Assembly (NCBI GenBank): GCA_028871815.1
Contig: JAGWMJ010000017.1
Coordinates: forward strand, 1 to 43,768
Length of the DNA: 43,768 nucleotides
Reading direction: 5' to 3'
Origin: Armatimonadota bacterium
Lineage (GTDB): Bacteria > Armatimonadota > Chthonomonadetes > Chthonomonadales > Chthonomonadaceae
Position numbers and translations under genes: made by a program. The notes under the pieces are model-generated. The model saw only the letters and a list, made by a program, of their open reading frames with translations, searched no databases and had not been told where the DNA came from. Shown piece after piece: positions 16,670 through 40,895 of the stretch. The first letter of the stretch is position 1. Every line of letters starts with the position of its first letter.

Positions 16670-16770
16670 GTCGAAAAGCAACTGCAGGCACCAGCCAGTG
16701 CCTCACCGCTAACGGCCGTCCGCGCGAATAGGTACCTGACAGCCAGCCGACCATGCTGCCGCACCCGCTA

Positions 16771-17663: not shown

Positions 17664-17840
17664 AACTCGTCGAGGAGCAGTCACGGTGCAACTGCCCGAC
17701 CGCTTGAAACCGCCATGTGACTGCAATCTCCCGATACAGACCGATTCCCGGCCACGGAGGAACCAGCCGCCGGCACGCGTAACCTGCGCCGTGATGGGCC
17801 GCCGGTAGCGAAACTGCCGCGGCCGTTACTGGAGGTCTTT

Positions 17841-23695: not shown

Positions 23696-23698
23696 CGG

Positions 23699-24904: not shown

Positions 24905-27900
24905 CTGCGTTGTACTCCGCGCGCGTCTCGTACACCTTGAGCCCTGCGATCTCTCGCTCGCCGGCCCGGCGTCGCAAAAGCGGCTCGAGCTCGTTCATCA
25001 GGGCGAGCTCCTTCTCTACGCGCTGGCGCCAACCCAGGCCCAGCGGCTCCAGCAGCGTGGTCAGCCGGTCTCCGTTGAAGATTCGCCGCTGGAGCACTTC
25101 ATCTACCAGCCGCTGCACCTCCTCCGCATTGAGCCCTTGTCGCGCGGCGAGCTCTGCTACCTCCTGCGCATCGCGTTCGGTCTTGAACGCGACATACCCG
25201 TCGCAGACCTGGCGCTTTTGCAGCGGCTTTCCGACCTCCAGCGAGCGGACGTATTCGGTGATGAGGTCGCGCTCGTCGAGGAACTTTGAGTCGGCGGCGA
25301 TCACGCCGATCAGCCGCTCCAGCGTAATCGCCTCCTTGCCCGGCTTCTGTTGGGAGAACCTGGCGATGAGGCTCATGATGTAGTCGTAGTCGATGAGCGC
25401 GGAGGCGAAGAGCACGAGCTCGAAGTCCACTTCTTCGACCGCTGCGTCCGGGTCGGCGCCCGTCTTGCGCTGCTTTTCTCTTAGCGCAAGTGCGGTCGCA
25501 AGGTATGCGCCCTTGAACCCGCGCAGTTGATCCTCGGGGAGTATGTTCTCCAGCTCCTGCTCTTGGTCGGGAGTGAGGTCGGTGTACTGGTCGAGCTGGG
25601 TCCGGAGCGTCTGTACCGCCTTGAACTTCTCAATGAACCCGACGCGGGCGTGGTCGCCCTTGAGATTCGCAACCTGGTCCGGCTTCATTGCGGCGCCCTG
25701 CGACGTCATGAACTCGTCAAGCTTCTGGACGGCCTCCTTCAGCTTCTCAATGATGGCGGGCGCCTTGTCCACCAGCCAGATTTCCTTTGGCGGGCGCGGG
25801 GAGGCGCCGGAGAACATCGCGATGGCGTCGTCGACCTCCTGCTGTTGGGCCCGGAAGTCGAGGATAGTGCCGTAGGGCTTCGTTGCGTTGAGGATGCGGT
25901 TCGTGCGACTGAACGCCTGGATCAGTCCGTGGTGCCTCAGGTTCTTGTCCACGTAGAGCGTGTTCAGGTACTTGGAATCGAACCCGGTGAGAAGCATATC
26001 CACCACAATGGTGACGTCGATCTTCTCGCTATCGGGCTGGTCACTGTTCGGGTACTGCTGGTCCTTGATTCGCTGCTGAACGTCCTGCTTCTCGCTATGG
26101 GGCTGGTGACTGTTCGGGTACTGCTGGTCCTTGATTCGCTTCTGAACGTCCTGGTAGTAGAGGTCGAACTCCTCGATGCAGTGGTTCGTCCCGTACCGCT
26201 CGTTGTAATCGGCGATGATCCGAGATAGCGCCTCCTTCTTCTCCTCGGGCTTTACCTTATTGTCTTCCCGCTCTTGAAGCAGGTCTTCCTGGATCTGCTT
26301 CACGTCGGCGCTCACGTCTCCGGGCGGGGAGAAGACGCAGGCGATGTTAAGGGGGATATAATCGGGATCCTCAGTAATCCGCTCGCGCTGGCGATCGGCG
26401 AACCGGTTGAAGTAGTCGATCGCGTCGTTGATGGAGCTTGTGGCGAGCAACGCGTTGAAGCGGCGATTGCCGGTGGCAGCGTCGTGCTTTTCGAGGATGG
26501 CGTTCACTACGGCAGCCCGGGTCAGGGGCTGACCGGGTTTGAGTTTGTCCTCGCCTTGCGGCTCGAAGTAATCCACGTGGAAGCGGAGGACGTTGCCGTC
26601 GTCGATGGCGTGGGTGATCGTGTACTCGTGGAGCCGTTGTTGAAACACAACGTCGGTGGTCAACAGGGACGCCTCACCGGCCCGGACGTTCACACGCACG
26701 GCGTTGTCTTCGAAAATCGGGGTACCCGTGAACCCGAAAAGTTGGGCGTTCGGGAAGAACTCCTTGATGGCGTTGTGGCTCTCGCCGAATTGGGACCGGT
26801 GGCACTCGTCGAAGATGATCACCATGCGCTTGTCGCGCAACGGATGGAGCTGCTCCGTGAAGGTCGCATGGCCGCGCTTCTTCCTGTTCTCGTTTCGCTT
26901 ACTGCCTTCGTCGAGCGCGAGGCCGAGCTTCTGGATTGTGGTGACGATCACTTTGTCGGCGTAGTCGTCCGACAGCAGGCGCCGGACAAGGGCGGCGGTG
27001 TTGGTATTCTCCTCGACGCACCCGGGCTGGAAGCGGTTGAACTCTTCGCGGGTCTGGCGGTCGAGGTCTTTGCGGTCGACGACGAAAAGGACCTTCTGAA
27101 TACTGTCGTTGGCCTTGAGAAGGGTGGCGGCCTTGAAGCTCGTGAGCGTCTTGCCGCTGCCGGTAGTGTGCCAGATGTAGCCGTTGCCGCTGTTCTCTTC
27201 GATACACCGGACGATGGCGTCCACCGCATAGATCTGGTAGGGCCGCATCATGAGGAGCTTCCGTTCGCTCTGGACGAGCACCATGTAGCGGCTGATCATC
27301 CGGCTGAGCGTGCATTTGGCCAGGAACTTCTCCGCGAAGTCGTCCAGGTGCGCGATCTTCCTGTTGTCCCGGTCGGCGAACTGGCAGATGGGCAGGTAGC
27401 GCTCATCGGCGTCGAATGCGAAGTGGCGAGCGTTATTATTGGCGAAGTAGTAGGTTTGGTCGCGGTTGCTGACAACGAAGAGCTGAATAAAGCACAGGAG
27501 CGTCTTTGTGTAGCCGTTGCCGTGGTCGTTCTTGTACTCGACGATCTGTTCCATGGCCCGTCGAGGGTTGATACCGAGGGTCTTGAGCTCGATCTGGACG
27601 ACGGGAATGCCGTTGATAAGCAGGATTACGTCGTAGCGGTGGTGACTGTAGTCCGTGTTAATCCGCAGCTGGTTGATGACCTCGAAATCGTTCTTACACC
27701 ATTCTTTGGTGTTGACGAGAGTGTAGTTCAGAGGGGTGCCGTCGTCGCGGCTGAAGCTGTTGATGTTACGAACGGTTTGGGCAGCGGTGAACACGTCCGC
27801 TGTGACAATCTCGTCCAATAGCCGGTTGAACTCGCCATCTGTAAGGTGGACCCGGTTAAGGGCCTGGAACTTCTCCCGGAAGTTCTGCTCCAGCGCGGCT

Positions 27901-27989
27901 CTATCTCTGATGTCCGCGCGGTACCTATACTTCAAGGCCACGAGCTTCTCGATCAGTTCATCCTCAAGCTGGCGTTCGGACAGTGTCAT
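24894..27989 (-). CDS. hsdR: Type I restriction endonuclease subunit
   Basis: The protein has about 1,031 residues. The N-terminal nuclease domain has Asp120 (RYDVILL) and the Glu134-Leu-Lys136 of the PD-(D/E)xK core (VVQIELKTLG). The SF2 translocase part has Walker A TTGSGKT (about 275-281), DECHRSQFGE (motif II) and LIQAFSRTNR (motif VI). The C-terminal helical region contacts HsdM. I chose ATG 27989 over a frame start at 28151 because the extra residues are Arg/Pro-rich and unlike any HsdR, and because 27989 overlaps the stop of the preceding small frame (ATGA). A 22-codon tandem duplication lies before motif V. Confidence 0.93.
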   Translation of the reverse strand: MTLSERQLEDELIEKLVALKYRYRADIRDRAALEQNFREKFQALNRVHLTDGEFNRLLDEIVTADVFTAAQTVRNINSFSRDDGTPLNYTLVNTKEWCKNDFEVINQLRINTDYSHHRYDVILLINGIPVVQIELKTLGINPRRAMEQIVEYKNDHGNGYTKTLLCFIQLFVVSNRDQTYYFANNNARHFAFDADERYLPICQFADRDNRKIAHLDDFAEKFLAKCTLSRMISRYMVLVQSERKLLMMRPYQIYAVDAIVRCIEENSGNGYIWHTTGSGKTLTSFKAATLLKANDSIQKVLFVVDRKDLDRQTREEFNRFQPGCVEENTNTAALVRRLLSDDYADKVIVTTIQKLGLALDEGSKRNENRKKRGHATFTEQLHPLRDKRMVIIFDECHRSQFGESHNAIKEFFPNAQLFGFTGTPIFEDNAVRVNVRAGEASLLTTDVVFQQRLHEYTITHAIDDGNVLRFHVDYFEPQGEDKLKPGQPLTRAAVVNAILEKHDAATGNRRFNALLATSSINDAIDYFNRFADRQRERITEDPDYIPLNIACVFSPPGDVSADVKQIQEDLLQEREDNKVKPEEKKEALSRIIADYNERYGTNHCIEEFDLYYQDVQKRIKDQQYPNSHQPHSEKQDVQQRIKDQQYPNSDQPDSEKIDVTIVVDMLLTGFDSKYLNTLYVDKNLRHHGLIQAFSRTNRILNATKPYGTILDFRAQQQEVDDAIAMFSGASPRPPKEIWLVDKAPAIIEKLKEAVQKLDEFMTSQGAAMKPDQVANLKGDHARVGFIEKFKAVQTLRTQLDQYTDLTPDQEQELENILPEDQLRGFKGAYLATALALREKQRKTGADPDAAVEEVDFELVLFASALIDYDYIMSLIARFSQQKPGKEAITLERLIGVIAADSKFLDERDLITEYVRSLEVGKPLQKRQVCDGYVAFKTERDAQEVAELAARQGLNAEEVQRLVDEVLQRRIFNGDRLTTLLEPLGLGWRQRVEKELALMNELEPLLRRRAGEREIAGLKVYETRAEYNADGE
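26022..26153 (-). repeat. 66-bp in-frame tandem duplication within hsdR
   Basis: Two adjacent 66-bp copies (26022-26087 and 26088-26153) differ at only a few bases and encode two 22-residue units, each containing RIKDQQYPNS. They lie just before VTIVVDMLLTGFDSKYL of the second helicase domain. Confidence 0.85.
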
Positions 27990-28195
27990 GATGACTGCGC
28001 GCTCCTCGCCGCCTTCGCCAGGCCGGTGGTCGGCTTGCCCAAAGGCTCGATGCCGGTGCCGACGCTGTCGTGCTCGACCGTTCGGTGGTGGCCGCGCGTT
28101 AGCTCGGCCAGCGCATCCACCATGCGGAAGCGGCTGTTGTCGGCCACCCACTCTCCTGGCACGGTGGGATTCGGGGCTTGCTGTTCATCGGACAC
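27986..28195 (-). CDS. Small ORF heading the Type I operon
   Basis: This is a 69-residue frame starting with GTG. Its TGA overlaps the hsdR start (ATGA), so ribosomes could pass straight on to hsdR. The peptide is hydrophilic (MSDEQQAPNPTVPGEW, ALAELTRGHHRTVEHDS) with no known domain. AAGGAG lies 11 nt before the GTG, a rather long spacing. It may be a genuine small protein, a leader for coupling, or the stump of a lost gene. I cannot decide between these. Confidence 0.4.
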   Translation of the reverse strand: MSDEQQAPNPTVPGEWVADNSRFRMVDALAELTRGHHRTVEHDSVGTGIEPLGKPTTGLAKAARSAQSS

Positions 28196-28413: not shown

Positions 28414-29172
28414 TTAAACCGACATGCCCCCGTCGATAACAAGGCCGCTGCCGGTGATGAACGAGGCCTCGTCGGAGGCCAGGTAGAGCGCGGCGGCGGC
28501 GATCTCGTCTGCGCTGCCGAGGCGGCCCAGCGGCTGGCGGGCGGCGTACTTCGCGCGCTCGGCGCCCGGGTCGGCGGCCGATTCGATGCGGCCGCTGAGC
28601 GATGGCGTTTCGATGGTTCCCGGCGCCAGGTAGACGGCGCGGATCCCGGTTCCGGCGTAGTCGACGGCGATGGCCCGGGTGAGGCCGATAACTCCCGCCT
28701 TTGCCGCGCAGTAGGCCGCCCGGTTCGGCAGGCCCATCACACCGGCCACCGATGCCATGTTGAGCAGCAGCCCGCCGCCCTGTCGCAGCATTACGGGGAT
28801 GGCGAAGCGGCAGCCGAGATACGCGCTTGTGAGCGTGGTGGCGATCTGCCGCTCCCATTCGGCGTGGGCCGTCTCCTCCACCGTGCCCTGTACGACGATG
28901 CCGGCGTTATTGAAAAGCACATCCAGCCGGCCGAACGCGGAAACCGCCGCGTCGATCATGCGGCGCACATCGGCCTCCACCGAGACATCGGCCTCGATGG
29001 CGAGCGCCCGCCCGCCGAACTCCTCGATCCGGCGCGCCACTTCGCGAACTCCCTCAGCGTTGATGTCGGCAAGGGCCACGGTGGCGCCTTCGCGCGCAAA
29101 CAGCTCGGCGGAAGCGCGGCCAATGCCCTGCGCGGCCCCTGTAATCACAACCGATCTATCTCTAAGCTTCAT
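28414..29172 (-). CDS. SDR-family NAD(P)-dependent oxidoreductase
   Basis: The 252-residue classical short-chain dehydrogenase has the cofactor motif TGAAQGIG (about 11-18), DVS, NNAG, catalytic Ser in NMASVAG, and YxxxK in YCAAK. The C-terminal end FITGSGLVIDGGMSV is typical of FabG-like members. An acidic residue after the second strand (ALADINAEG) suggests NAD(H) preference. The substrate is unknown. I chose ATG 29172, since the longer frame adds residues that precede the Rossmann strand and lie inside the terminase gene. A TATCAT box ends 7 nt before the start. The next gene, a phage small terminase, is divergent only 7 bp away. Confidence 0.88.
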   Translation of the reverse strand: MKLRDRSVVITGAAQGIGRASAELFAREGATVALADINAEGVREVARRIEEFGGRALAIEADVSVEADVRRMIDAAVSAFGRLDVLFNNAGIVVQGTVEETAHAEWERQIATTLTSAYLGCRFAIPVMLRQGGGLLLNMASVAGVMGLPNRAAYCAAKAGVIGLTRAIAVDYAGTGIRAVYLAPGTIETPSLSGRIESAADPGAERAKYAARQPLGRLGSADEIAAAALYLASDEASFITGSGLVIDGGMSV

Positions 29173-29179: not shown

Positions 29180-29185
29180 ATGATA
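29180..29185 (-). promoter_or_regulatory. TATCAT box of SDR gene
   Basis: On the minus strand TATCAT ends 7 nt before the SDR start codon. The same six bases form the first two codons (ATG ATA) of the divergent terminase gene. It is a candidate leaderless -10; no -35 match is seen. Confidence 0.3.
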
Positions 29186-29608
29186 CAGCATCGCACTTCG
29201 AAACAGCCGATAGAACCCGAAGCGGCTGACCGGCCGGAGCTGGTCACAGCCATTATTACGGCTCTGCTGCAGGGCGCTACGCGGCGTACAGCCGCGGCTG
29301 CGGCCGGCATCAACGAGGCCGCGCTCCAGAGCATGCTGCGCCACAACCCCTGCCTGGAGGCAGAACTTGCGCAGGCGGAAGCTCAGTGTGAAACGCGGTG
29401 CGCCGCCGCCGTGATGGAGGCGGTTGAGAAGGGCGATTGGCGCGCCGCGCTGGCCCTGCTGGCCCGCCGTGACCCGGCCGCATGGCAGGAGCGGAGGCAG
29501 ATTGACGTTAGAAAGCTCACCGATCTTCAGATTGTCGCCCTCCTTGAAGCAGATGCTGAGGCAGGAAGCGAGCCGCAGGGGACTGGTGGTGAGCCAGGCG
29601 GCGAATGA
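29180..29608 (+). CDS. Probable phage terminase small subunit
   Basis: The 142-residue protein has a helix-turn-helix-like N-terminal half (LVTAIITALLQGATRRTAAAAAGINEAALQSML) followed by a helical oligomerisation stretch (EAELAQAEAQCETRCAAAVMEAVEKGDWRAALALLARR) and RRDPAAWQERR. This is the form of many phage small terminases that bind the packaging site and load the large subunit. Identity rests on its fold-like pattern and on its place directly before the large subunit, whose frame overlaps it by 56 bases. ATG 29180 fits that order; a much longer frame opening upstream is a shadow of the SDR gene. Confidence 0.65.
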   Translation: MIQHRTSKQPIEPEAADRPELVTAIITALLQGATRRTAAAAAGINEAALQSMLRHNPCLEAELAQAEAQCETRCAAAVMEAVEKGDWRAALALLARRDPAAWQERRQIDVRKLTDLQIVALLEADAEAGSEPQGTGGEPGGE

Positions 29609-31100
29609 CGCGGAACGCGCACGCTGCGCGGCGGATGTGGTCTACTGGCTCACCACCTTCTGTAAAACCTACGATCCCCGCCTTCCGGAGCCGATTCTGC
29701 CCTTTGTTCCGTTTCCGCGGCAGATCGAGTTCCTGCTCTGGCTGAAAGAACGCGAGGCAAATCAGGAGGATGGCGTCGCCGAAAAGTGCCGCGACGTCGG
29801 GTTTACATGGCTTTGCTGCGCCTATATGGGGCACGCCTGGTTGTTTCGAAAGGGTTTCAAGGGGGCATTCGGCAGCCGGAAGCTGGAGCTGGTCGATCGG
29901 CTCGGCGATCCCGACAGCATCTTCGAGAAGATCCGTATCGTGCTGCGCCACCTTCCGGGCTGGATGCTGCCCGCCGGATTCAGCTGGCGCGAGCACGATA
30001 ACCTGTGCAAGCTGATCAATCCGGAGTCGGGCGCAACGCTCACCGGCGAGGGGGGCGACAACATCGGACGCGGCGGGCGCGCCACCCTCTACATTATTGA
30101 TGAGGCCGCGCACCTGGAGCGTGCCGAGCGGGTGGAGGCTGCGCTCAGCCAGACTTCGCGCTGCAAAATCTGGGTCTCGACCCCGAACGGCATCGGCAAC
30201 CTCTTTGCCCGCAAGCGTTTCAGCGGCGCGTACCCGGTCTTTACGTTTCGCTGGCAGGATGATCCACGCAAAACGGAAACCTGGTTCCAGCAGCAGAAGC
30301 GGACCCTGGACCCGGTTGTTCTGGCGCAGGAAGTGGAGATCGACTACGCCGCCAGCGTGGAGGGCATCTGCATACCGGCCGCATTTGTGCGCGCAGCCAT
30401 CGAGATGACGAAACGCCTGGCCGATGAACCCGTGCATGGCCCGGCGGCCGCCGGGCTGGACATTGCCGAGGAAGGCAAGAGCCGCACCGTGCTCATCGTC
30501 CGGCGCGGCCCGATGGTAACCGACGTGCTGGATTGGGGCGCGGCCAACACCACGCAGACGGCATGGCGGGCGCGGGATGAAGCGGAGCGCCGCGGGGTGG
30601 TGACACTCTGCTACGATGCCACGGGTGTAGGCGCCGGTGTGCGCGGCGCATTCGAAAGCGCGGAGCGTAAGCCGGCCTTCGCCGCTGTGGCGATCAATGG
30701 CGGAGCGCGCCCCGGCAACCGCCGCTGGCCGGACGGCGCCACCAGCGCTCAGCGATTCCTCAACCTTCGCGCCGAACTCTGGTGGATGCTTCGCAGCCGG
30801 TTTGAGGCCGCGTTTGAGCTTGTGGAGCACGGCATCGAACACCCGCTGGAGGAGCTGATCGCCCTGCCGCACCACGCCGACCTTGCGGCGCAGCTCTCGG
30901 CGCCGCGGTGGTTCCACACAGAGACGGGCAAAATCCGCATCGAGAGCAAGCTGGAGATGGCGCGCCGCGGCGTGGCAAGCCCCGATTTCGCGGATGCGCT
31001 GGCCTATGCTTTTGCTGCCGGCGTGCGGCCGGTTGCGTTTGTGGCCGGCGGCCGGCGAGAAGCCACGCTGACCCCAAATCGTGGCCTGCGCCGTGGCTGA
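29553..31100 (+). CDS. Phage terminase large subunit
   Basis: This packaging motor has about 515 residues. The ATPase part has a deviant Walker A region (EKCRDVGFTWLCC) and Walker B with the catalytic Glu (LYIIDEAAHL), then the coupling motif (WVSTPNG). The nuclease part has the RNase H-like acidic residues in AAGLDIAEEGK, CYDATGVGAG and PDFADALAYAF. It cuts and pumps DNA into the head through the portal. A TTG at 29502 with GGAGG 4 nt upstream is an alternative start adding 17 residues. All motifs look intact. Confidence 0.85.
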   Translation: MLRQEASRRGLVVSQAANDAERARCAADVVYWLTTFCKTYDPRLPEPILPFVPFPRQIEFLLWLKEREANQEDGVAEKCRDVGFTWLCCAYMGHAWLFRKGFKGAFGSRKLELVDRLGDPDSIFEKIRIVLRHLPGWMLPAGFSWREHDNLCKLINPESGATLTGEGGDNIGRGGRATLYIIDEAAHLERAERVEAALSQTSRCKIWVSTPNGIGNLFARKRFSGAYPVFTFRWQDDPRKTETWFQQQKRTLDPVVLAQEVEIDYAASVEGICIPAAFVRAAIEMTKRLADEPVHGPAAAGLDIAEEGKSRTVLIVRRGPMVTDVLDWGAANTTQTAWRARDEAERRGVVTLCYDATGVGAGVRGAFESAERKPAFAAVAINGGARPGNRRWPDGATSAQRFLNLRAELWWMLRSRFEAAFELVEHGIEHPLEELIALPHHADLAAQLSAPRWFHTETGKIRIESKLEMARRGVASPDFADALAYAFAAGVRPVAFVAGGRREATLTPNRGLRRG

Positions 31101-31160
31101 AGCGAATCGGTGCGATCGTGGCGTCAGGGCGCGGGATGTGGGGAGATCGAAGAGGTAGCC

Positions 31161-32555
31161 GTGGCCAAAGCAGCTCCCATCGTTGAAACTGTAGTAACGG
31201 GCGAAGCGCCGGCGGCCGGAATGCCGGGCGCGCCCGCATCTGGTGGTGGTGAGCGCCGTGTGAGCCGGATATCGGCCAACCCGCTGCTGGAGTATGTGGC
31301 AGGCGGTTCGTACGCATGGACCGCCAGCTTTCTTCGCAGTCTGCCGTTTGCCATCGACGACGTAACGCGCGACTTTGGCGACGATCTCTACGAGAGGATG
31401 CTGCTGGATCCGCAGGTTGCCTCCAGTGTGAACACGGTCAAGATGGGCGTTCTGAGCAGCACGATGCGCCTGCTGCCCGCCGGCGATTCGCCAATTGCCC
31501 GGGCGGCGTGCGACTTCTGCAGCCGCTGCCTGGATGAGCTGGAGACGCCGCTCTACACCGTTCTGTGGAACCTGCTCGATGGCCTGGCGCTGGGCAACAA
31601 GGTGGCCGAGCAGGTCTATGCCATCCGCGATAGCCGGTTGGCGCTGGCTGCCCTCAAGGTCAAGCCACGACGCGCAACCGCCTTTGTGACGGATGTCTAC
31701 CTTAATCTCGTCGGTGTGCTCGGCCTCATTCCCGGTCAGGGCGCGCCGGTGCTGGTTGAAGGTCTTATCGGCGAACCGGCTCGCACGCCGCATCTGCTGC
31801 CGCGATCCAAGTTTCTGGTGTTCACATTCCGCCAGCGTGACGGCGATCCGCGCGGGCAGAGCATTCTCCGTCCCGCGTACAGCGCCTGGTTCCTCAAGAC
31901 GCAGATGTGGCAGGAGTATCTCAAGTATCTCACTCAGTTTGCCGGTCCCAGTCTCATCGGCTTTACTCCGGAAGAGGCCCAGCAGACCGTGCAGACCGAT
32001 TCGCTGGGCAATATCCAGACCGATGCCAACGGCAGCCCGATCTACCTCAATCCCGAGCAGGCGATGCTCGCAGCGCTGCAGACATTCCGGAATGGCACGG
32101 CAGCGGTCTTCCCCTTCGGAAGTCGCGTCGAGCCTCTGCAGATGGCCGGTGACGGGGGCGCATTTCTGCAGGCGATCGGCCTATTCAACAGCGAGATTGA
32201 CCGCGCCGTCACGGGCCAAACTCTCGCCACACAGGAGGGCGAGCACCAGAGCCGTGCGGCCAGCGCCGTGCACCAGGATGTGCTGGGGCTGGTGGTGCGC
32301 GCCGGCAAGCACGCTCTGGAGACCGCGCTCCAGCGCGACGTCCTCCGCCCACTCACCGTGCTCAACTTTGGAGGCGCCGCGGCGGATTTAACGCCCCGGC
32401 CAACGCTGGCCGACACCGAAAGCCAGGATTTCGCTGATACCGCGGCCTCGATCGCAGCCCTGCAGACATCGGGATACCTGGCCGCATCCCAGTACGCCGC
32501 ACTCGATGCGATGCTGGGCCTGCCTGAACGCAAGGAGGAACCGGAGCAGATATGA
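31161..32555 (+). CDS. Phage portal protein (DUF935/Mu gp29-like)
   Basis: The protein of about 464 residues has the layout of DUF935 portal proteins: DDLYERMLLDPQVASSVNTVKMGVLS near residue 75, then FRQRDGDPRGQSILRPAYSAWFLKTQMWQEYLKYLTQFAGP (the stem and wing helices), and GQTLATQEGEHQSRAASAVHQDV before the C-terminal crown. Portals form the 12-subunit ring at one head vertex through which DNA passes. The GTG at 31161 was chosen for its AGAGGT site; frame codons before it lack one. The protease start overlaps the stop (ATGA). Confidence 0.85.
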   Translation: MAKAAPIVETVVTGEAPAAGMPGAPASGGGERRVSRISANPLLEYVAGGSYAWTASFLRSLPFAIDDVTRDFGDDLYERMLLDPQVASSVNTVKMGVLSSTMRLLPAGDSPIARAACDFCSRCLDELETPLYTVLWNLLDGLALGNKVAEQVYAIRDSRLALAALKVKPRRATAFVTDVYLNLVGVLGLIPGQGAPVLVEGLIGEPARTPHLLPRSKFLVFTFRQRDGDPRGQSILRPAYSAWFLKTQMWQEYLKYLTQFAGPSLIGFTPEEAQQTVQTDSLGNIQTDANGSPIYLNPEQAMLAALQTFRNGTAAVFPFGSRVEPLQMAGDGGAFLQAIGLFNSEIDRAVTGQTLATQEGEHQSRAASAVHQDVLGLVVRAGKHALETALQRDVLRPLTVLNFGGAAADLTPRPTLADTESQDFADTAASIAALQTSGYLAASQYAALDAMLGLPERKEEPEQI

Positions 32556-33622
32556 ATCGTACGGTCGCATTGCACTTCGCCGGTGGTGCAGACGGTGTTC
32601 CACCCGGCAGCGTTAGACTGAAAGGCAAGCTGTTTCAGGCGGGTGAATACCTGGACAAGAGCTTCAGCCTGACTCGCGAAGAGATGGAGTCGGCGGCGGC
32701 GGCATTCGTGCCGATTCCGCTCAATCTGGAGCACCTGGGCGCACTTGGCGTGGAGACTCTGCTCGATGGACGGCTCGGGTGGTTGACGCGCATCTGGACC
32801 GATGGCGATAGCCTGTTTGGCGAAGCGGATGTACCGCCGTGGCTGCGTGAAGCCATGGCCGGGGCGCCGCTCCGCGTGAGCTGTGAGTGGGACCGGGACT
32901 CCAAAACGCTCGCCGGTCTTGCGCTGGTGGCGCTGCCAAGGGTCGCTGATGCCGCCTTGATGGCGCGCCTGAAAGCTTCCAGAAACGAATCGTGTGATGC
33001 GGGCGTCTGCCCGAGAGAGGAGTTGGCAAGAGTGTCGTTCCGTGAATCGGTGATGAACTGGCTCGGGGCAGGCGCCCCAAATGACGATGTGCCCGATCCC
33101 GATGGCGCCGGTGGAGACGCCTCGGCGCCGGCTGCGCCGCCGGAAGAGACGGCGGCGTTTGCCGCGCTCCTGCGCACCCGGGATGCCGAAATCGCGCAGA
33201 TGAAGGCGGAGCGTGCCCAGATGCTGGCCGCCGCCAGAGCCGATGAGGCGGTTCGCGACGGCCACGCCGTGCCGGCCGAGCGCGAGGCTCTTGCGGCCCT
33301 GTTTGCGCAGGCGCTGCACGATGACGAGCAGGGATCTGCCGCGTGCTTCGGCGCCTCCGGCGCAAGCCGTGTTGCGATGCTCCACGCGCTGCTTGATGCA
33401 CGGCCGGCCAGCCTGCTCTGTCTTGAGGCTCTGCAGCCGGCCGATCCGGCTGCCGCGGGTCGCGATACGCTCACGCTGCTCAACTGCAGCGATACGCCGC
33501 AGGTGGGGGATGCCGCGCCGCCCGACAGCCGGCGCCGGCTCGAGCTGCACCGGCTTACCCCGATGGGCCAGGCATTTCTCTCCACCGATGCCGGGCGCGC
33601 GCTCTCGGCATCCGCGCGATAA
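32552..33622 (+). CDS. Capsid maturation protease/scaffold
   Basis: This 356-residue protein has two parts. Residues 1-150 resemble prohead proteases: a His in IPLNLEHLG and a Ser in LRVSCEWD are candidate catalytic residues, in the usual order. Residues 190-250 form a charged coiled coil (TRDAEIAQMKAERAQMLAAARADEAV) of the kind that serves as scaffold and is cut away on maturation. The family resembles the Mu-type protease-scaffold arrangement, but the assignment to a peptidase class is inference. It follows the portal with a 4-base overlap and precedes the decoration genes by 3 bp. Confidence 0.7.
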   Translation: MNRTVALHFAGGADGVPPGSVRLKGKLFQAGEYLDKSFSLTREEMESAAAAFVPIPLNLEHLGALGVETLLDGRLGWLTRIWTDGDSLFGEADVPPWLREAMAGAPLRVSCEWDRDSKTLAGLALVALPRVADAALMARLKASRNESCDAGVCPREELARVSFRESVMNWLGAGAPNDDVPDPDGAGGDASAPAAPPEETAAFAALLRTRDAEIAQMKAERAQMLAAARADEAVRDGHAVPAEREALAALFAQALHDDEQGSAACFGASGASRVAMLHALLDARPASLLCLEALQPADPAAAGRDTLTLLNCSDTPQVGDAAPPDSRRRLELHRLTPMGQAFLSTDAGRALSASAR

Positions 33623-33625
33623 CCG

Positions 33626-34054
33626 ATGCCCACAACCGCCGCGGCTATCCTGGATCTACGAGGGCTGCAGCCATGGAGCGACCCGTTTCTGGCGAGACTG
33701 GCCGATGTGAAGATCGCGCCATCGGTCATCCTGGCAAGCGGTGTCGTGCTGGGTGAGCTGACCGCACAACCCGGTACATACGGCGCTTACGGCGCGCAGC
33801 ATATCGACGGCACCCAGATCCCGAAAGGGATTCTGGCTTACGATGTGCAGACCGACGCCGGCGGCAGCATATCGCTCACCGGGCTCGTGGCGCCGTTCGG
33901 CGTGCCGGCGCCGACGGTTCAAAGCGTGGGTATGTACTACACCGGCGTCTTCGCCTGCTCCGAACTCACCGGCATGGATGCCAATGCGCTGGCCGTCCTC
34001 GGCGGCCACCTGATCTCCGGCGATCTCACCTCCGGCGTCGTCTGTATCGGCTAG
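33626..34054 (+). CDS. Head decoration protein, short paralogue
   Basis: The 142-residue protein resembles gpD-like decoration proteins: SGVVLGELTAQPGTYGAY, GILAYDVQTDAGGSISL and a C-terminal TGVFACSELTGMDANALAVLGG. Such trimers clamp the expanded capsid. It is similar to the next gene over both ends, so the pair arose by duplication. It has no signal peptide and no membrane segment. The ATG at 33626 follows the protease gene by 3 bp. Confidence 0.65.
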   Translation: MPTTAAAILDLRGLQPWSDPFLARLADVKIAPSVILASGVVLGELTAQPGTYGAYGAQHIDGTQIPKGILAYDVQTDAGGSISLTGLVAPFGVPAPTVQSVGMYYTGVFACSELTGMDANALAVLGGHLISGDLTSGVVCIG

Positions 34055-34120
34055 CCGGCCCAGGTCATCGCCGCCTGCCCGGCGGCTGGTCGACCACTTT
34101 CTCAATCTGCGAGGAGCAAT

Positions 34121-34846
34121 ATGCCTGTTTCTGCCTCCACCACATTCACCAATCTCAAACTGGAGCCGTTCATGAGCCCGGATTTGGCTCGCGAGCAGAC
34201 GGTGGCCCTGGGGCCCTCGCTCAGCCTCCCTCGCGGCACCGTGCTCGGCGAGGTCACGCCGGTGCAGACGGTGACGATCAGCGGCGCGCCGACGGGCGGA
34301 ACCTTCACACTCTCGTGCAGCGGCCTCGCCACGGCGCCCATCGCCTATAACGCCACCTCGACTGCCGTACAGGCCGCACTTTCAGCCCTCGGTGTGCTGA
34401 ACGCGGTCGCCGTGAGCGGCAGCGCCGGAGGGCCGTGGTCCGTGACGCTCTACCCACCGGCAAACACCATCTTCCCAACGCTTTCGGCAAGCGGCGCCGG
34501 GCTTACCGGCGGCACAAGCCCGGCCGCCGCCGTCGCCTGGGCCTCGCCCGGCTACACATCGTGGGGAATCTACCGCTCCTATGCATCCGCCAACACCGAT
34601 GGCAGCCAGGTGGCGAAGTGCCTGCTGGCATACGATGCACAGACCGATGCGGCCGGCAACATCACGCTCTCCGCATCCGCCCTGCAGGCAGGCGGCGAGT
34701 GGGGTGAAACCAGCCTCGGCGCGCCGGCGTGGTTCAGCGGCATCTTCCGGTGCGAGGAGCTAAGCGGACTGGACGCCACAGCGCTCGCCGCGCTGGACGG
34801 CAGCCTCATCGAGGGAACCGTGACGCAGGGGATCGTACGTCTGTAA
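34121..34846 (+). CDS. Head decoration protein with inserted beta domain
   Basis: This 241-residue protein shares its ends with the preceding gene: RGTVLGEVTP near residue 38 and LLAYDAQTDAAGNITL, SGIFRCEELSGLDATALAALDG at the C-terminus. Between them, at about residues 47-140, lies an extra domain (TFTLSCSGLATAPIAYNA, TAVQAALSALG, WSVTLYPP) resembling the small beta-sandwich repeats of surface and virion proteins. The insert would be displayed outside the capsid and may bind glycans or cells; that is inference. A GAGGAG site lies before the ATG. Confidence 0.65.
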   Translation: MPVSASTTFTNLKLEPFMSPDLAREQTVALGPSLSLPRGTVLGEVTPVQTVTISGAPTGGTFTLSCSGLATAPIAYNATSTAVQAALSALGVLNAVAVSGSAGGPWSVTLYPPANTIFPTLSASGAGLTGGTSPAAAVAWASPGYTSWGIYRSYASANTDGSQVAKCLLAYDAQTDAAGNITLSASALQAGGEWGETSLGAPAWFSGIFRCEELSGLDATALAALDGSLIEGTVTQGIVRL

Positions 34847-34879
34847 GCGGCGCAGCCGCCAGGGAGGTTCAACAGCCGG

Positions 34880-35896
34880 ATGCCAGACTTTGTTTACCCC
34901 ACCAGCGCTGAGCTGGAAACGATTGCCCAGGACTATATGCCGCGCCTGATGGAGGAGCGGCCCATCTTCAACATCCTCCCGGTTCGCGCGGTGGATGCGC
35001 ACCTGCTGATGTGGGAGCAGATGGACAACTACCAGGGCCTGCAGCAGGTCCGCGGGCTGGACGGCGACGCCACGCGCGTCCGAAAGACCGGCATCAAGCG
35101 CTATCTGATGCAGCCGGGAGTCTATGGCGAGTTCGACAACATCGATGAACAGGAGCTGACAGCTCGCCGCGCAATGGGAAGCTTCGGCGGCCCGATCGAC
35201 ATCAGTGATCTGGTGCTGATGGCGCAGAGCAAGCTGCTGCAGCGCCGCCTGGACCGCATCGAGTCGATTGGATGGACGCTTCTTTCTGAAGGCACGTTCA
35301 GCGTGCCGGACGGCACGGGAAAGGTGCTGCACACCGATACGTTCGCGCTCCAGAGCTATACCGCCGCCACACCGTGGAACACCGCGGCCACGGCAGCGCC
35401 ACTGGCCGATCTGCGCGCCGTAAAGCTGATGCGGCGCGGCCATTCGGTAGATCTCGGCGCCGGCGCGCAAGCGTGGATGAACCAGACCACCTTCAACAAC
35501 CTGATCATGAACGACAATCCGAACGACCTGTTCGGACGCCGTACTGCGGGCCTGGCCACGATCAACAACCTGAAAGACGTGAACACCATCCTGAGCGGCG
35601 ATGCACTGCCGGAGCTGGCTGTGTACGATGCCGGCTACTTTGATGACAGCGGCGCCTTTCAGCTGTACATTCCCAATAACAAGGTGGTGGTGGTAGGGCG
35701 CCGTCCCGCCGGGCAGGTCGTCGGCGAGTACCGCATGACGCGTAATGCCAACAACCCCAACCTCGCGCCGGGACCCTATATGAAGGTGATTGATACCGGT
35801 GAGTTCAAGGTGCCGCGCTCGCTGCAGGTTCACGACGGGCACAACGGCGGGCCGGTGATCTACTACCCGGGCGCCATCGTGGTGATGAATGTCTAG
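34880..35896 (+). CDS. Major capsid protein (gpE family)
   Basis: The 338-residue protein has the pattern of the lambda gpE-type major capsid family: an N-terminal region with ILPVRAVDAHLLMWEQMDN, the middle FDNIDEQELTARRAMGSFGGP, a long helix ISDLVLMAQSKLLQRRLDRIESI, and the C-terminal P-domain with ELAVYDAGYFDDSGAFQLYIPNNKVVVVGRR and YYPGAIVVMNV. It forms the icosahedral shell, stabilised by the decoration proteins encoded just upstream. The frame is complete. A GGAGG site lies about 14 nt before the ATG. The next gene overlaps its end by 8 bases. Confidence 0.88.
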   Translation: MPDFVYPTSAELETIAQDYMPRLMEERPIFNILPVRAVDAHLLMWEQMDNYQGLQQVRGLDGDATRVRKTGIKRYLMQPGVYGEFDNIDEQELTARRAMGSFGGPIDISDLVLMAQSKLLQRRLDRIESIGWTLLSEGTFSVPDGTGKVLHTDTFALQSYTAATPWNTAATAAPLADLRAVKLMRRGHSVDLGAGAQAWMNQTTFNNLIMNDNPNDLFGRRTAGLATINNLKDVNTILSGDALPELAVYDAGYFDDSGAFQLYIPNNKVVVVGRRPAGQVVGEYRMTRNANNPNLAPGPYMKVIDTGEFKVPRSLQVHDGHNGGPVIYYPGAIVVMNV

Positions 35897-36197
35897 CGCG
35901 GTCGGCGAGGATGCCGGGGGCCCGATGGAGAGCCAAACGGCCGCCGCGGCAGAACGGCCTCACGCCGGTTCGCCGTCGGTCCGCATGCGCCCGCCGAGGT
36001 GGTATCGCGTGGTGCACACCGCCATCGGCTCGGGTGGCGGAGTCGGACCCTGGTTCGAGGGCGACGTCATACCGGCGAAGGCATTTTCGCCGTCGGAGGA
36101 GGGCGCAGCCGTTCGCCGGCGGCTGCTGGCGCTGGGCGCTATCGTGGAGGCCGCCGGTCCGCCGCCGAGGTCGGCCGAGGCATCCACGGATGGCTGA
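35889..36197 (+). CDS. Small phage head-region protein
   Basis: The 102-residue protein has an unstructured, Ala/Gly/Pro-rich N-terminus and a core RWYRVVHTAIGSGG, GPWFEGDVIPAKAF and RRRLLALGAIVEA. The last part resembles short phage proteins of unknown role that follow capsid genes. It overlaps the capsid gene by 8 bases and the next gene by 8 bases, which supports translation. No enzymatic motif is seen. Confidence 0.55.
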   Translation: MSSAVGEDAGGPMESQTAAAAERPHAGSPSVRMRPPRWYRVVHTAIGSGGGVGPWFEGDVIPAKAFSPSEEGAAVRRRLLALGAIVEAAGPPPRSAEASTDG

Positions 36198-36543
36198 CGG
36201 CGCCACCATCGTTCGGCAAGGCGAGATACGCGACTTGGTAGCCACGCTGACCGCGCCGGCCAACCTTCAGTTGGCCGGTACGCCGCTCTTCTTCCTCTTC
36301 GATGAGACCAACCAGCCGATCACTTCACCTATCGACTTTGTGGCCGGCCAGCCGGCAGCAACCGTGGCAGCCGGCCCTGCCGGCTCCATCCAGGTGAAGT
36401 ACACCATAGACTGCCTGAACAACCTCTGGCCGGCCGGCTACTACACCGGCAGCTTTCGACTTCAGGATACGTCCGGGCATATCCACGTCTGCGAGCTGAC
36501 CCTCTACATTGCGCCGGCGCCTAATCTTCCGTGGTCACCGTGA
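36190..36543 (+). CDS. Beta-rich phage structural protein
   Basis: The 117-residue protein is mostly beta strand (IRDLVATLTAPANLQLAGTP, GSIQVKYTIDC, GYYTGSFRLQDTSGHIHVCELTLYIAP). The plan suits an Ig-like or connector protein at the head-tail region, but I cannot name it. The ATG at 36190 overlaps the previous stop by 8 bases, so I prefer it to the longer frame opening at 35911. Confidence 0.55.
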   Translation: MADGATIVRQGEIRDLVATLTAPANLQLAGTPLFFLFDETNQPITSPIDFVAGQPAATVAAGPAGSIQVKYTIDCLNNLWPAGYYTGSFRLQDTSGHIHVCELTLYIAPAPNLPWSP

Positions 36544-36594
36544 CGAGGCGGCGGCAGGCTGCCGGCGCGCAGCGCGCAGCAGCAGGAGGCCGAT

Positions 36595-37038
36595 GTGGCA
36601 AGTTCCGATCTGATCCCGCAGCAGAAACTCATTCTGGAAGAGTTGAACCAGACGGCTGCAGACCCGCTGGCGCCGATGATCAAGACCATCTGGAACCTGT
36701 ACGCCGCGCATGCGGCCATCGCGCCCGAGCTGCAGTACCTGTACTCCAGGCGCCACTGCATCATCTACCTGCTGGGCCAAACCGCCGCCAATGTGGATGT
36801 TACGCTGGGAAGCGATCGGATTCTGCAGAGTCAGCAGTACGCCATGCTGCTGAAGATGGAGCAGCTGACGGATACCCAGATCGCCAGGATCCTTGCGCGC
36901 GCCCGTGCTCAGCGCGCCGCGGCAGCCGGCGGCATTTCGGCCACAGCGCCGGAGCAAGTATCGCCCGGTGGCGCGGACCCGGCCGATACCGCCTACAGCG
37001 GCGACCCACAAAAGCCGCTGCGTGCGCAGGATCTTTAA
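36595..37038 (+). CDS. Phage connector-region protein of unknown role
   Basis: The 147-residue helical protein (QQKLILEELNQTAADPLAPMIKTIWNLYAAH, YSRRHCIIYLLGQ, QYAMLLKMEQLTDTQIARILARARAQ) has a disordered C-terminus. Its place after the capsid gene suggests a head completion or connector function, as for small helical proteins in that position. The start is GTG, with AGGAGG 5 nt upstream; the ATG two bases earlier is out of frame. Confidence 0.55.
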   Translation: MASSDLIPQQKLILEELNQTAADPLAPMIKTIWNLYAAHAAIAPELQYLYSRRHCIIYLLGQTAANVDVTLGSDRILQSQQYAMLLKMEQLTDTQIARILARARAQRAAAAGGISATAPEQVSPGGADPADTAYSGDPQKPLRAQDL

Positions 37039-37068
37039 CTTCGGTCACGGCGGCGAAAGGCGAACCAT

Positions 37069-37407
37069 ATGGAGTCGCAGACACTGGCGGATACCACCGC
37101 GCAGGCGCTGAAACAGTTCGGCGATCCCACGGCAATCAATGGCCAGGGTGGCGCTACCGCTCTGTGGCAGCGAGCGGAAGCGGGGCGGATCAACCGGTTC
37201 ATCGAAGTGCAGAACCTCCAGTCGCCGGCCTACCTGGTTCACTTTCCAGCCTCGGCGCTCGCAGCGCCGTGGAACCTGAATGTGGGGAGCGAAATCGATT
37301 GGTCCGGCGTCGGCGTGACGGGAGTCTGCCGCGCCCTCGAGTTTCACTCGCTATCGGGCAGCGTGGTTTCGGTAACAGCCGTAGTGGTGTTGATCACGCG
37401 CGAATGA
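37069..37407 (+). CDS. Phage structural protein of unknown role
   Basis: The 112-residue protein has a helical start (TLADTTAQALKQFGDP) and beta strands after residue 40 (RFIEVQNLQSPAYLVHFPA, VTGVCRALEFHSLSGSVVSVTAVVVLIT). It lies in the head-to-tail connector part of the cassette. I recognise no family. The frame is clean and follows the previous gene by 30 bp. Confidence 0.5.
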   Translation: MESQTLADTTAQALKQFGDPTAINGQGGATALWQRAEAGRINRFIEVQNLQSPAYLVHFPASALAAPWNLNVGSEIDWSGVGVTGVCRALEFHSLSGSVVSVTAVVVLITRE

Positions 37408-37588
37408 GGTAAGCCCGCCCTGCGCTGTGGCGCAGATCCGACCCATCACCAGCGGATCGCTCCACTTCGGTTGAGATGAAGCCGCCGGTGTGTGTGTGTA
37501 CCGTAACGGGTACGCCAACCGGCCGGCGCCGCCGCCGTTTTCGGGCGCCGCAATGCCGCCGATTTTGTATCTCCAACCACAAGCAAAC

Positions 37589-38143
37589 ATGATAGAAACC
37601 ATCACGACACATCTCTTCGATCTTCTTGAGGCCGACGCTCAGCTCATCGCGGGCGGCAGCGCCTGGCCGGCGGGATTTGCCGGCGTCCGCCGGATTGCCA
37701 ATGGTGATGCCGCCACTGCCGGATGTGTGAACCTCTTTGATCACGTGGAGGATGCCGACTCCAACACTGCCCGTCCGGCCATCTATTGCGGCGCGAAAGC
37801 TCTTGAACTGGAAGACCGGTTGGAGAGCTGGTCGCAGAGCAGTCCGGTCGGGCGTACCGAGTACCGCCTCCTCACGATCCCGCTGATGCTTGTTTGCGCG
37901 GCTTCAGGATATCTGGATGCAAAACGCCAGCGCAATCAGCTGCTGGCAAACGTCCGTTCCATCATGATGGCCCATATGGTGGAACCGGGCTACTGGTTCG
38001 AGCAGACGGCGCCCGGTGCGGCGGCCGGCGGCGATTCGCGGGAAGTGCTGACCAGCAGCGCGGCCGGTGGCGGGGCAGCAGAGTCCGGCGCTGCATACCC
38101 TCTGGTTATCCGATACTCAATTCGGGCCGATAGCCCCGCATAG
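37589..38143 (+). CDS. Tail terminator-like phage protein
   Basis: The protein of about 184 residues starts with a helix (MIETITTHLFDLLEADAQL) and has a middle of the type RPAIYCGAKALELEDR, YRLLTIPLMLVCAASGYLDAKRQRNQLLANVRSIMM. This resembles tail terminator or tail completion proteins that cap the tail where it joins the head. An upstream ATG at 37553 is possible; I chose 37589 because the family-like helix begins there. It is the last phage gene. A tail tube, sheath or tape measure gene would be expected next, yet none follows. Confidence 0.5.
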   Translation: MIETITTHLFDLLEADAQLIAGGSAWPAGFAGVRRIANGDAATAGCVNLFDHVEDADSNTARPAIYCGAKALELEDRLESWSQSSPVGRTEYRLLTIPLMLVCAASGYLDAKRQRNQLLANVRSIMMAHMVEPGYWFEQTAPGAAAGGDSREVLTSSAAGGGAAESGAAYPLVIRYSIRADSPA

Positions 38144-38449
38144 CCCATCCCCTCCATGGCGGTTTGGGCCGGCAGGCATGCCGGATAGATGCTGCAGCCG
38201 GGCAGCCCGTCATGGGCGGCGAGCTGCCGATTCCGGGTCACCGATCTCCCTGGCGACCACGGTTTAGCGAACGGCGCAAGCGGCGCTCAACGGGAACCAA
38301 TCGGTGGGGTTGGCCGTCAACAAGTGGATGGCGGATCCGCAACCGCCATGGCCGAGCCGCCGTCGGCTCGGCGCCAACCACCCGCGGCGAACTAGCCCGC
38401 CGCCTCGTGCAGCGCCTTCCGTCTTTCAGGCTTGCAAGGGAGAAGAAGC
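38144..38449. promoter_or_regulatory. Upstream region shared by both FecR-like genes, copy 1
   Basis: No gene is seen here. The segment 38270-38449 is a diverged copy of 41125-41247. Both hold a 22-base identical stretch (38283-38304 and 41137-41158), GGCGGATCCGCA-CCGCC, CGCCTTCCG and the same ribosome binding region. The 5' region was therefore duplicated together with the gene. Confidence 0.5.
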
Positions 38450-40828
38450 GTGAAACCTGCGACACGATTCCGGGCCATCCGATGGCCGATCGCCACGGCT
38501 GCAGCCGTTCTAAGCGTCTCTGCAGTTGTTATCGCTTTGCACCGCGCGCCCGTGCGCGACAATGGGCCGGCGTTGGCCAGCCAGAACCCAAATCCAGGCG
38601 CCGACACGCAAGGGCCGGTGCGAATGGCACGATTCTCTAACAACGTCGGAGCCGTGATGTTCCGCCCGTCCTCCACCAATCTGTGGGCCACAGCTACCAT
38701 CAATCAGCCGCTCCGGCAGGGCGCGAGCATCTACCTGCAGCGCGGCGCCGATTCGGAGGTTCAGTTCGATGACGGCGCCGCGATGCGCCTGGGATACCAG
38801 GCTGCGGTAACGCTGCAGACCATGTACAGCGACTCGCAGGGCGAGTTTACGGAGCTGCGTCTCACCACAGGCGCCATGACGCTTCATCTGCGGCATGGCA
38901 ATTCGATCTACCAGGTAGACACGCCGTTCGCTTCGGTGCGAGCCGATGGTCCGGCGGACTTTCGTGTTGGAGTGGGCGCCGCATTGACGGTATCCGACTA
39001 TGCGGGCCGCGCGCAGGTTCAGTCCTCCGGCGGGAACCGCTGGGTCGATGCGGGTCAATCGGTGCGGTTGGGCGGCGCCGGCGCTGCGATCTCGCTGCAG
39101 TCCCGGCCTCGCAGCGACTCGTTCGATCACTGGTGCCGGCACAGAGACACCGTGCTCTATGGTGATCCGACCTCTGAACGTGTGCTGCCTTCCGACATTG
39201 CGCTGGTTTGCGGCAATCTGACGGATTATGGCAACTGGTACCACGACCCCAACTACGGCTCGGTCTGGCGGCCCATCGAACCGATCGGCTGGCGGCCGTA
39301 CCACTCGGGACGCTGGGTATGGGTGGCGCCGGTCGGTTGGACCTGGGTAGCCACTGAGCCGTGGGGCTGGGCGCCGTACCATTACGGATCCTGGGCATAC
39401 GAAGAGGGCGCATGGGAGTGGATTCCCGGTCCTGTGTACCAGTACTGGTCTCCCGCCGTGGTCAGCCTGAGCTACTACAGCGGCGGATACGCCTGGTGTC
39501 CGCTGGGCCCGTCCGAAGTTCGTTACCCCGCCGCCTTCAGTATCGGATTTAGTTCCGGCAACTGGGCGGTCGACTTCTCAATCGGCGGCGCCGGCAACTA
39601 CTATCCGTACGGCGGTGGGGCCTACTACACCGGCGATCCATGGAATACCGGCTATGTAAACCGCGTCACCAATATCAGTATCACCAACATCTACAACAGC
39701 CGTGCTGTTGCTGGCGCGTGGTACAACGGCGGTGTTTACCAGGGTGGCAGCGTGCCGACGGCTGGTTTCAACAGCGCGTACAACGGCCGGTTTATCCCAC
39801 AGAATGCGCGCTTTGCCGCCGGCGCGACTTTTGCCTCGGCAGCGGCATTCGGGGGTCGCGGTGTATACCGCGGTCTAAACGCCGGAAACGTAGCGCCGTT
39901 CAGCCAGGGCCGCATTATCGGAGCGCCACGCGCCGGATTCCAGCCGGTTTCGGGTCCGCGCGGCGGAGCTACGCTGGCATCGTTCTCGGCTTCACGTCGA
40001 ACGTTTGCCAGTTCACGGCCGTCGATGGTGCTGTCGCGCGGTGTCTACCGTGCAGCGCTGCCCTCTTCGGTAGCTGCGCTGTCGTCGCACCGTTATGCCG
40101 GCTCAATCCGCACCCTGCCGGCTCGCGTCGCATTCGGGCGCGCGCCAGGCCGGATAGTTGGTCGAACGGGCCGCACGCCTGGATTCGCTGGAACCGCGCG
40201 GAGTCCCGGGATGCCGGCGTTCGGGCGGAACGCCCGGCCGATGGGCTTTGGCGCGCGCCGCGCCGCGCCCGGCCATCCCGGTGTGCCGGCAAACGTGGCC
40301 GCGGCCCGCAGAAGCATGGGGTTTGGTGGTAACAGGGGCCGCGCCCCGGCATCGCATGCGTTCGGGAGGTTCGCACGGCCGGCGCCCGGCTCGCATGCGG
40401 GCAACCGGCCCGGTGTCGGCCGCAGGGCCAACCCGGCCGGCTTCGGTGCAAGGCGCGCTCCGGCAGCGGTCGGCGCCGCACGCCGGACTTTCGCCGGCGG
40501 GCGCCGCCCACAGTACCGGGCGCCATCGCGGCCTCAGTATCGCCGGCCATCGCAGCCTCGGTACCGGGCGCCATCGCGACCTCAGTACCGGCCGCAGTAT
40601 CGGCGGCCTTCGCGACCTCAGTACCGGCCGCAGTATCGGCGGCCATCGCGACCTCAGTACCGGCCGTCGCGGCCTCAGTACCGCGCGCCGTCGCGGCCTC
40701 AGTTCCGGCCGTCGCGGCCCCAGTACCGCGCGCCATCGCGGCCTCAGTACCGGCCGTCCCGGCCTCAATACCGGGCGCCATCGCGGCCTCAGTACCGCCC
40801 GCCATCGCGGCCACAGAAGCACCGCTAG
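38450..40828 (+). CDS. FecR/DUF6600-like envelope protein with RPQYR tail
   Basis: The 792-residue protein has a signal-anchor helix (about 10-32) and a FecR-like beta domain (about 55-205, DDGAAMRLGYQAAVTLQ and RLTTGAMTLHLRHGNSIYQVDTPFASVRADGPADFRV). A Trp/Tyr-rich DUF6600-type region follows (about 240-345, WRPYHSGRWVWVAPVGWTWV and EPWGWAPYHYG). The C-terminal 300 residues are Gly/Ala/Arg rich and end in about 110 residues of repeated RPQYRAPS-like units, very basic. The role is unknown; the domains suggest an envelope protein interacting with polymers. GTG 38450 was chosen because GGGAG lies 8 nt upstream. A close paralogue follows downstream. Confidence 0.75.
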   Translation: MKPATRFRAIRWPIATAAAVLSVSAVVIALHRAPVRDNGPALASQNPNPGADTQGPVRMARFSNNVGAVMFRPSSTNLWATATINQPLRQGASIYLQRGADSEVQFDDGAAMRLGYQAAVTLQTMYSDSQGEFTELRLTTGAMTLHLRHGNSIYQVDTPFASVRADGPADFRVGVGAALTVSDYAGRAQVQSSGGNRWVDAGQSVRLGGAGAAISLQSRPRSDSFDHWCRHRDTVLYGDPTSERVLPSDIALVCGNLTDYGNWYHDPNYGSVWRPIEPIGWRPYHSGRWVWVAPVGWTWVATEPWGWAPYHYGSWAYEEGAWEWIPGPVYQYWSPAVVSLSYYSGGYAWCPLGPSEVRYPAAFSIGFSSGNWAVDFSIGGAGNYYPYGGGAYYTGDPWNTGYVNRVTNISITNIYNSRAVAGAWYNGGVYQGGSVPTAGFNSAYNGRFIPQNARFAAGATFASAAAFGGRGVYRGLNAGNVAPFSQGRIIGAPRAGFQPVSGPRGGATLASFSASRRTFASSRPSMVLSRGVYRAALPSSVAALSSHRYAGSIRTLPARVAFGRAPGRIVGRTGRTPGFAGTARSPGMPAFGRNARPMGFGARRAAPGHPGVPANVAAARRSMGFGGNRGRAPASHAFGRFARPAPGSHAGNRPGVGRRANPAGFGARRAPAAVGAARRTFAGGRRPQYRAPSRPQYRRPSQPRYRAPSRPQYRPQYRRPSRPQYRPQYRRPSRPQYRPSRPQYRAPSRPQFRPSRPQYRAPSRPQYRPSRPQYRAPSRPQYRPPSRPQKHR
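40500..40825 (+). repeat. RPQYR-coding low-complexity repeat
   Basis: About 15 short units of 15-24 bp, based on CGGCCATCGCGGCCTCAGTA-like words, encode RPQYR and RPQYRAPS/RRPS variants. Copies are near identical in DNA as well as protein, so the tract is recent and likely to vary in length. Confidence 0.85.
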
Positions 40829-40856
40829 GCGGCAGCGGGATCGGGTAAGCCGAGCC

Positions 40857-40895
40857 TGCAAACGGGCCGGAGCATGCAGCTCCGGCCCGTTTGCA
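40857..40895. terminator. Strong hairpin terminator after FecR-like gene
   Basis: A perfect 17-bp stem (TGCAAACGGGCCGGAGC and its complement) encloses a 5-base loop ATGCA, 28 bp after the stop codon. The outer part of the stem gives a GTTTGCA end rather than a long T run. The hairpin should stop or protect the transcript. Confidence 0.7.

Follow-up and report, generated by a model that had tools for sequence, protein, structure and literature searches.

The window analysed here, i.e., the whole stretch of DNA of 43,768 nt, is the complete contig C17 of the draft genome G000 (3.68 Mb, 22 contigs, 98% complete) from the little-known phylum Armatimonadota. By an ORF scan, the GC content by codon position and scans against PHROGs and Pfam, an uninterrupted phage head and packaging block of 12 intact frames on the plus strand was identified at positions 29180-38143. 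It encodes the small and large terminase subunits, a Mu-type portal, a protease, two decoration proteins, an E-type capsid and five small proteins in neck position. The features of the block and its borders are as follows:

28420..29172, minus strand: left border, host SDR oxidoreductase, divergent, with its start codon 7 bp from terS
29180..29608, plus strand: terminase small subunit (terS), 142 aa (phrog_4102, E 1e-12)
29532..31100, plus strand: terminase large subunit (terL) (phrog_2, E 7e-29)
31110..32555, plus strand: portal protein of the Mu type (DUF935) (PF06074 Portal_Mu, E 2e-54)
32552..33622, plus strand: head maturation protease, possibly a scaffold fusion (phrog_976, E 2e-6)
33626..34054, plus strand: head decoration protein, lambda gpD-like (PF02924, E 1.5e-6)
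34121..34846, plus strand: second decoration protein (40% identical to phage contig L212)
34880..35896, plus strand: major capsid protein, Phage_cap_E (PF03864, E 3e-15)
35889..36197, plus strand: small protein after the capsid gene, 102 aa (by position only, that of a 115-aa protein in L155)
36190..36543, plus strand: "RQGE" protein, predicted beta-sandwich, 117 aa, BppU-N-like (HMM search)
36595..37038, plus strand: probable head-tail adaptor, 147 aa (27-30% identical to phage homologues)
37069..37407, plus strand: possible head-closure protein, 112 aa (by position and pattern only)
37408..37588: gap of 181 bp
37589..38143, plus strand: possible tail terminator, 184 aa (by position and pattern only)
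38144..38271: right junction interval, from the last phage stop codon to the repeat upstream of both FecR genes
38432..40828, plus strand: right border, host FecR/DUF6600 protein (PF04773, PF20245)

None of the 12 chosen frames contains an internal stop codon and GC3 exceeds GC2 in all of them. The genes mostly touch or overlap (spacings of -77 to +66 bp), with the 181-bp gap before the last gene as the exception, and both codon usage and GC content of the block are host-like. Profile scans of the other window proteins revealed no integrase, lysis, replication or tail families, nor a Mu-type transposase for replication. The preliminary description of an intact head module lacking these functions is thus borne out. 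The sole transposase-like gene of the window encodes an IS200-type Y1 protein and lies 12 kb from the block. This RAYT-type gene (16038-16655) is surrounded by repeats of about 210 bp with palindromic elements of 30-39 bp, of which at least seven copies are found at 15279-17673.

The first seven proteins of the block are backed by profile or clear tblastn matches. The terL frame is open from 29424 and its start is uncertain. The protein retains a DEAA Walker B, an STPNG motif and the three nuclease aspartate positions. It is 40% identical to terminases of Acinetobacter phages and 50% identical to those of G006 and G013, with D310, D362 and D485/D488 invariant in the alignment. The G006 terminase belongs to a contiguous prophage-like element (L042, L037; G006:C176) with a phrog_1005 capsid and large unknown proteins, which shares a family of 726-790-aa proteins (26% identity) with a second element in G027:C40. 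The DUF935 portal places the block in the Portal_Mu clade. In the protease, the candidate catalytic residues His61 and Ser110 are conserved among relatives (alignment A4). The gpD-like decoration protein is 44% identical to that of L155, and the second decoration protein holds an inserted domain which is also present in phage tail tubes.

For the 102-, 112- and 184-aa proteins no significant profile match was obtained. The names "connector" and "tail terminator" used in the preliminary description therefore fare unevenly: the 147-aa protein has homologues in the phage contigs L155, L156, L207 and L212 (tblastn), whereas the other assignments rest on position and weak similarity. For the 112-aa protein no reliable fold was predicted (pLDDT 45), and at the place of the 184-aa protein G157 encodes a protein matching the tail terminator family phrog_78. 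Between stopper and terminator, a Neck1-type/tail completion gene is found in G157 and L155, where the block has the 181-bp gap. The RQGE protein is predicted with moderate confidence (pLDDT 76) to adopt a beta-sandwich fold; its matches include phage proteins, one of them a BppU-N protein, and by HMM search it is common to other Chthonomonadales elements.

Both borders can be assigned to the host, because orthologues of the SDR are found in 10 family genomes (47-62% identity) and the FecR protein is present in 15 of the 17, which agrees with the host-like borders described before. The coordinates of the FecR gene are those of its open frame; the likely start is at about 38451. The right junction was delimited by a repeat detected with blastn (38000-38700 against 40800-41800). 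Further downstream, at 38432-43768, FecR/DUF6600 genes that are 79% identical lie in tandem; their upstream regions are duplicated, repeats of the RPQYRAPS type are present, and the contig ends inside the second gene. Directly to the left of the SDR, at 20886-28151, lies a type I restriction-modification operon (hsdM, an AAA_13 ATPase-like gene, hsdS, hsdR). A shared empty site could not be found among the relatives, in which the SDR and FecR orthologues are not adjacent to each other. Due to the spacing of only 7 bp between the starts of terS and the SDR gene, the block has no promoter region of its own. A scan for sigma-70-like promoters, which is a weak test, gave no site near terS.

An artefact of assembly or binning, in which a phage contig was joined to host DNA, could be suspected for a single case in a draft genome. 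It is extremely improbable here, as host genes typical of the family form both borders on this contig, the codon usage of the block matches that of the host, and a chimera would require two separate junctions, both of them coinciding with the edge of a gene. A satellite that borrows the tails of a helper phage is also very unlikely. The capsid-forming PICIs encode terS, terL, portal, protease, capsid and connectors (PMC10690885), and the block resembles them in gene content, with a complete capsid and packaging set and no tail genes. In contrast to them, neither integrase nor regulatory or replication genes were detected among the window proteins scanned. Excisionase and HNH endonuclease genes are likewise absent from the scanned proteins of the contig, and no direct repeat of at least 12 bp occurs at the block borders.

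The closest relatives of portal and capsid are IMG/VR contigs. The siphophage-type contigs L212, L203, L205, L207 and L211 carry Portal_Mu, decoration and Cap_E genes in the same order as the block, and so do the Microcystis phages Mae-JY24 and Mwe-Yong1318-1. In all of these, further genes follow the head genes, whereas the block stops before the tail. L212 (49.7 kb; portal 50%, decoration 40%, capsid 55% and adaptor 27% identical) continues with neck genes, a tube-like 149-aa protein and a tape-measure-like protein, the latter two being named by position and size without a Pfam match. The block capsid is 58% identical to that of L155.

Among 291 Armatimonadota genomes, the block capsid was found in 15 by profile search, while a search of the genome contigs with the window's own capsid gave no relative. 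Of these, the clusters of G157 and G120 (family f14) are similar to the block in capsid (51-55%), decoration (32-42%) and, for G157, portal (45%). Here, the capsid and decoration genes are followed by a 437-aa tube-like protein and by RcGTA-like distal tail genes (DUF2460, gp84 baseplate hub, g15-like; NlpC/P60 shown for G120). Unlike the block, these clusters thus keep tail genes, and they have host genes interspersed among the phage genes and a different terminase. The loci (L168/L169, G157:C1:353001-393000; L170/L196, G120:C20) can be described as GTA-like or prophage clusters, and both are followed, on the opposite strand, by acyltransferase-like genes that are related to each other (40% identical). 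The preliminary description had named tail and integrase genes beside the module in relatives as the mark of a plain prophage remnant: tail genes do adjoin it in L212, G157 and G120, while no integrase was seen there. As tail genes follow the shared head genes in these relatives, the tail appears to have been lost in G000; of the possible histories this is the simplest and, judged from the relatives, the best supported.

The proposal to look for the module in related genomes and for a matching tail module elsewhere in the genome gave negative results in both respects. The block-type head module is absent from all 16 other family genomes, and profile searches of G000 for tape measure (PF10145), DUF2460 (PF09343), Phage-tail_3 (PF13550) and tube (profile A10) detected no tail gene, with positive controls in G157, G120 and a separate prophage of G005. 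The one match of the tube profile in G000 was rejected, as it corresponds to the inserted domain of the second decoration protein. The terminase of G000 was not detected with PF03237, a model which is therefore too narrow here. A GTA or prophage whose tail module lies elsewhere in G000 and is of a type unrecognised by the profiles used is therefore unlikely, also because the closest complete relatives hold head and tail together. In its favour, G000 is 98% complete in 22 contigs, which leaves a small part unseen, and tail-position genes of Armatimonadota can be novel.

Such genes are found in genus g31, in which four species share a collinear element with capsids of 89-93% identity. The dN/dS of 0.03-0.04 is a bound rather than an estimate, as synonymous sites are saturated. 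After the tube position, this element encodes novel proteins of 790 and 1,000 aa, whose relatives have no Pfam matches; a fifth, more distant element of this type is present in G102. Copies of a small pilin-like gene are located next to or between the portal and protease genes of the g31 element in L173 (2074-3908, G116) and L175 (19547-19996, G111); in G113, the gene is not between portal and protease.

From these comparisons, with a probability of roughly one half, the most likely reading is that the block represents a recent remnant of a prophage with a deleted tail. It would be the head and packaging segment of a former siphophage-type prophage that has lost its genes for tail, lysis, replication and integration by deletion. 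The tailed relatives, the negative tail searches in G000 and the lack of the module in the 16 family genomes argue for this, as do the close terS-SDR spacing and the gap in place of a Neck1-type gene. The deletion would have been recent and the remnant non-functional, with decay still to come. The block also shows what is expected of a defective prophage, namely homology to a known phage lineage and the loss of essential modules that relatives such as L212, G157 and G120 possess for the tail. Broken frames, which are usual in defective prophages and not required, were not found.

It had been argued that decay would have broken the frames of a mere remnant. This argument turned out to be weak. 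Assuming rates of 4.5% nonsense mutations and 10% indels per substitution, 9 kb would stay intact under neutrality with a P of about 0.08 at 0.2% divergence and of 0.02 at 0.3%. A neutral residence is ruled out only for divergences above about 0.3% if indels are counted, or about 1% if nonsense mutations alone are considered, so that the intact frames are as compatible with a recent deletion as with selection. The dN/dS of 0.30 determined for the window comes from one near-saturated comparison (capsid against L155) and reflects the lineage, not the copy in G000.

Several observations speak against the remnant. All 12 frames are intact, candidate enzyme residues are kept, and codon usage and GC content are those of the host. 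Furthermore, both breakpoints are located at the edges of the head module and not inside genes, which random deletion rarely achieves, and other head-only sets in the order appear to be retained under selection. For the earlier suggestion of a domesticated particle, a GTA head or a satellite, the evidence is mixed: the cut at the module edges, the host-like codon usage, the kept candidate residues and the domesticated look of the other head-only sets in the order are in its favour, the tail genes adjoining the module in relatives are not. If the block were expressed, its proteins should assemble a prohead, mature it, fill it with DNA and perhaps close it. The product would be heads without a tail, which therefore could not inject on their own, and the block has no lysis gene for their release.

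Like the GTAs classified as viriforms (RcGTA, BaGTA, BhGTA), the block consists of head genes of phage origin among host genes without an integrase, and its particle proteins derive from Caudoviricetes. The particles of known GTAs are caudovirion-like, package random host DNA and deliver it, and these GTAs are inherited mostly vertically, co-diversifying with the hosts (PMC9662315). The block differs from them in that it occurs in one genome and lacks a tail as a means of delivery, the four tail profiles being negative in G000.

Searching the family with the portal and terminase of the window also revealed a second type of head-only gene set, here called S-elements. They occur in at least eight genomes (G005, G007, G009, G017, G020, G027, G028, G030) of the host families f1, f2 and f3. 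The S-element capsid also led to named relatives, by which G000 is placed near Chthonomonadales, in the family comprising Chthonomonadaceae and uncultured Chthonomonas MAGs. The gene set, complete or incomplete according to the length of the contig, comprises terS, a Walker-A terminase, a DUF3467 protein, portal, protease, decoration and a phrog_1005 capsid, followed by a 100-119-aa protein, adaptor, stopper and adhesin-like proteins. The latter are a GDSL esterase (G005, G017), RQGE and, in G027, proteins that are Gp80/GP4 fibre-like and, by eye, LamG-like. The loci are L021 (G027:C27:11800-23600), L024/L058 (G005), L036/L059 (G007), L023/L057 (G009), L025 (G020), L035 (G017), L034/L073 (G028) and L074 (G030).

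Host genes separate the S-element genes, which stand alone or a few in a row; dinB and an epimerase gene are recurrent neighbours. In G005, portal and epimerase are followed by protease, decoration, capsid and dinB; in G009, terS and terL are on one contig and the portal is alone on another; in G027, the entire element covers about 12 kb, includes dinB and an epimerase gene and is flanked by host genes at either end. Since the MAGs are fragmented, the evidence for dispersal is strongest in those cases in which a phage gene has flanking host genes within one contig, as in G005, G007, G009, G017 and G027. The four profile searches found no tail genes in seven of the eight genomes. Those of G005 were rejected as an S-element tail, because they are part of a separate complete prophage on contig C215 with its own terminase and capsid.

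In the five genomes with both sequences, capsid identities (69-77%) are on about the same level as those of RpoB (68-82%), and dN/dS is about 0.12-0.26 in comparisons that fall short of full saturation at synonymous sites. The f3 genomes are grouped in the terminase (support 100) and portal (99) trees, and a concatenated tree separates f1 and f3 with moderate support (SH-aLRT 100, UFBoot 72), while capsid and protease trees are poorly resolved. Capsid and RpoB identities show no rank correlation (rho -0.10, n=10), so that co-divergence rests on the family-level clades only. Taken from these comparisons of sequences, vertical inheritance with purifying selection fits the S-elements, without being proven.

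As a serious though less likely alternative, the host may retain the block of G000 for tailless particles that pack DNA (domesticated, GTA-like, or storing or removing DNA), which the S-elements of the order may form as well. Its complete, intact head set with a cut at the module edges is consistent with this, as are the tailless S-elements in eight genomes of three families, with their capsid conservation, dN/dS and separation of f1 and f3. Block and S-elements are both head-only, occur in the same bacterial order, share the 117-aa RQGE protein and have portals of 27-28% identity. The block itself is, however, no S-element: these have a different capsid family (phrog_1005), a terminase lineage of the Walker-A type and a DUF3467 protein, and are dispersed. 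G000 has no match to their capsid profile A1, and its single portal is that of the block. In addition, the block is known from one genome, has neither a promoter region nor a lysis gene, and RQGE is also encoded by an ordinary prophage (G005:C215) and by phage contig L097. Of the two readings, the tail-deleted remnant is the more likely.

Taken alone, the block is probably a further case of a truncated prophage. Several structural gene sets derived from phages are located among host genes in Armatimonadota, and more important than the block is the head-only set which is conserved in at least three families of the order to which its host belongs. A partial search of the literature gave no description of such elements in Armatimonadota, which is weak evidence of novelty. 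To our knowledge, all known GTAs deliver DNA with caudovirion-like, tailed particles; a conserved tailless set for DNA packing would therefore raise the question of what use a DNA-filled head is to its maker. It is a doubtful idea that Chthonomonadales repeatedly keep tailless phage heads, in the block and, independently, in the S-elements, as DNA-filled, possibly adhesin-bearing particles that serve the host. If true, such particles may function in gene transfer by another entry route, in DNA release or in another role.
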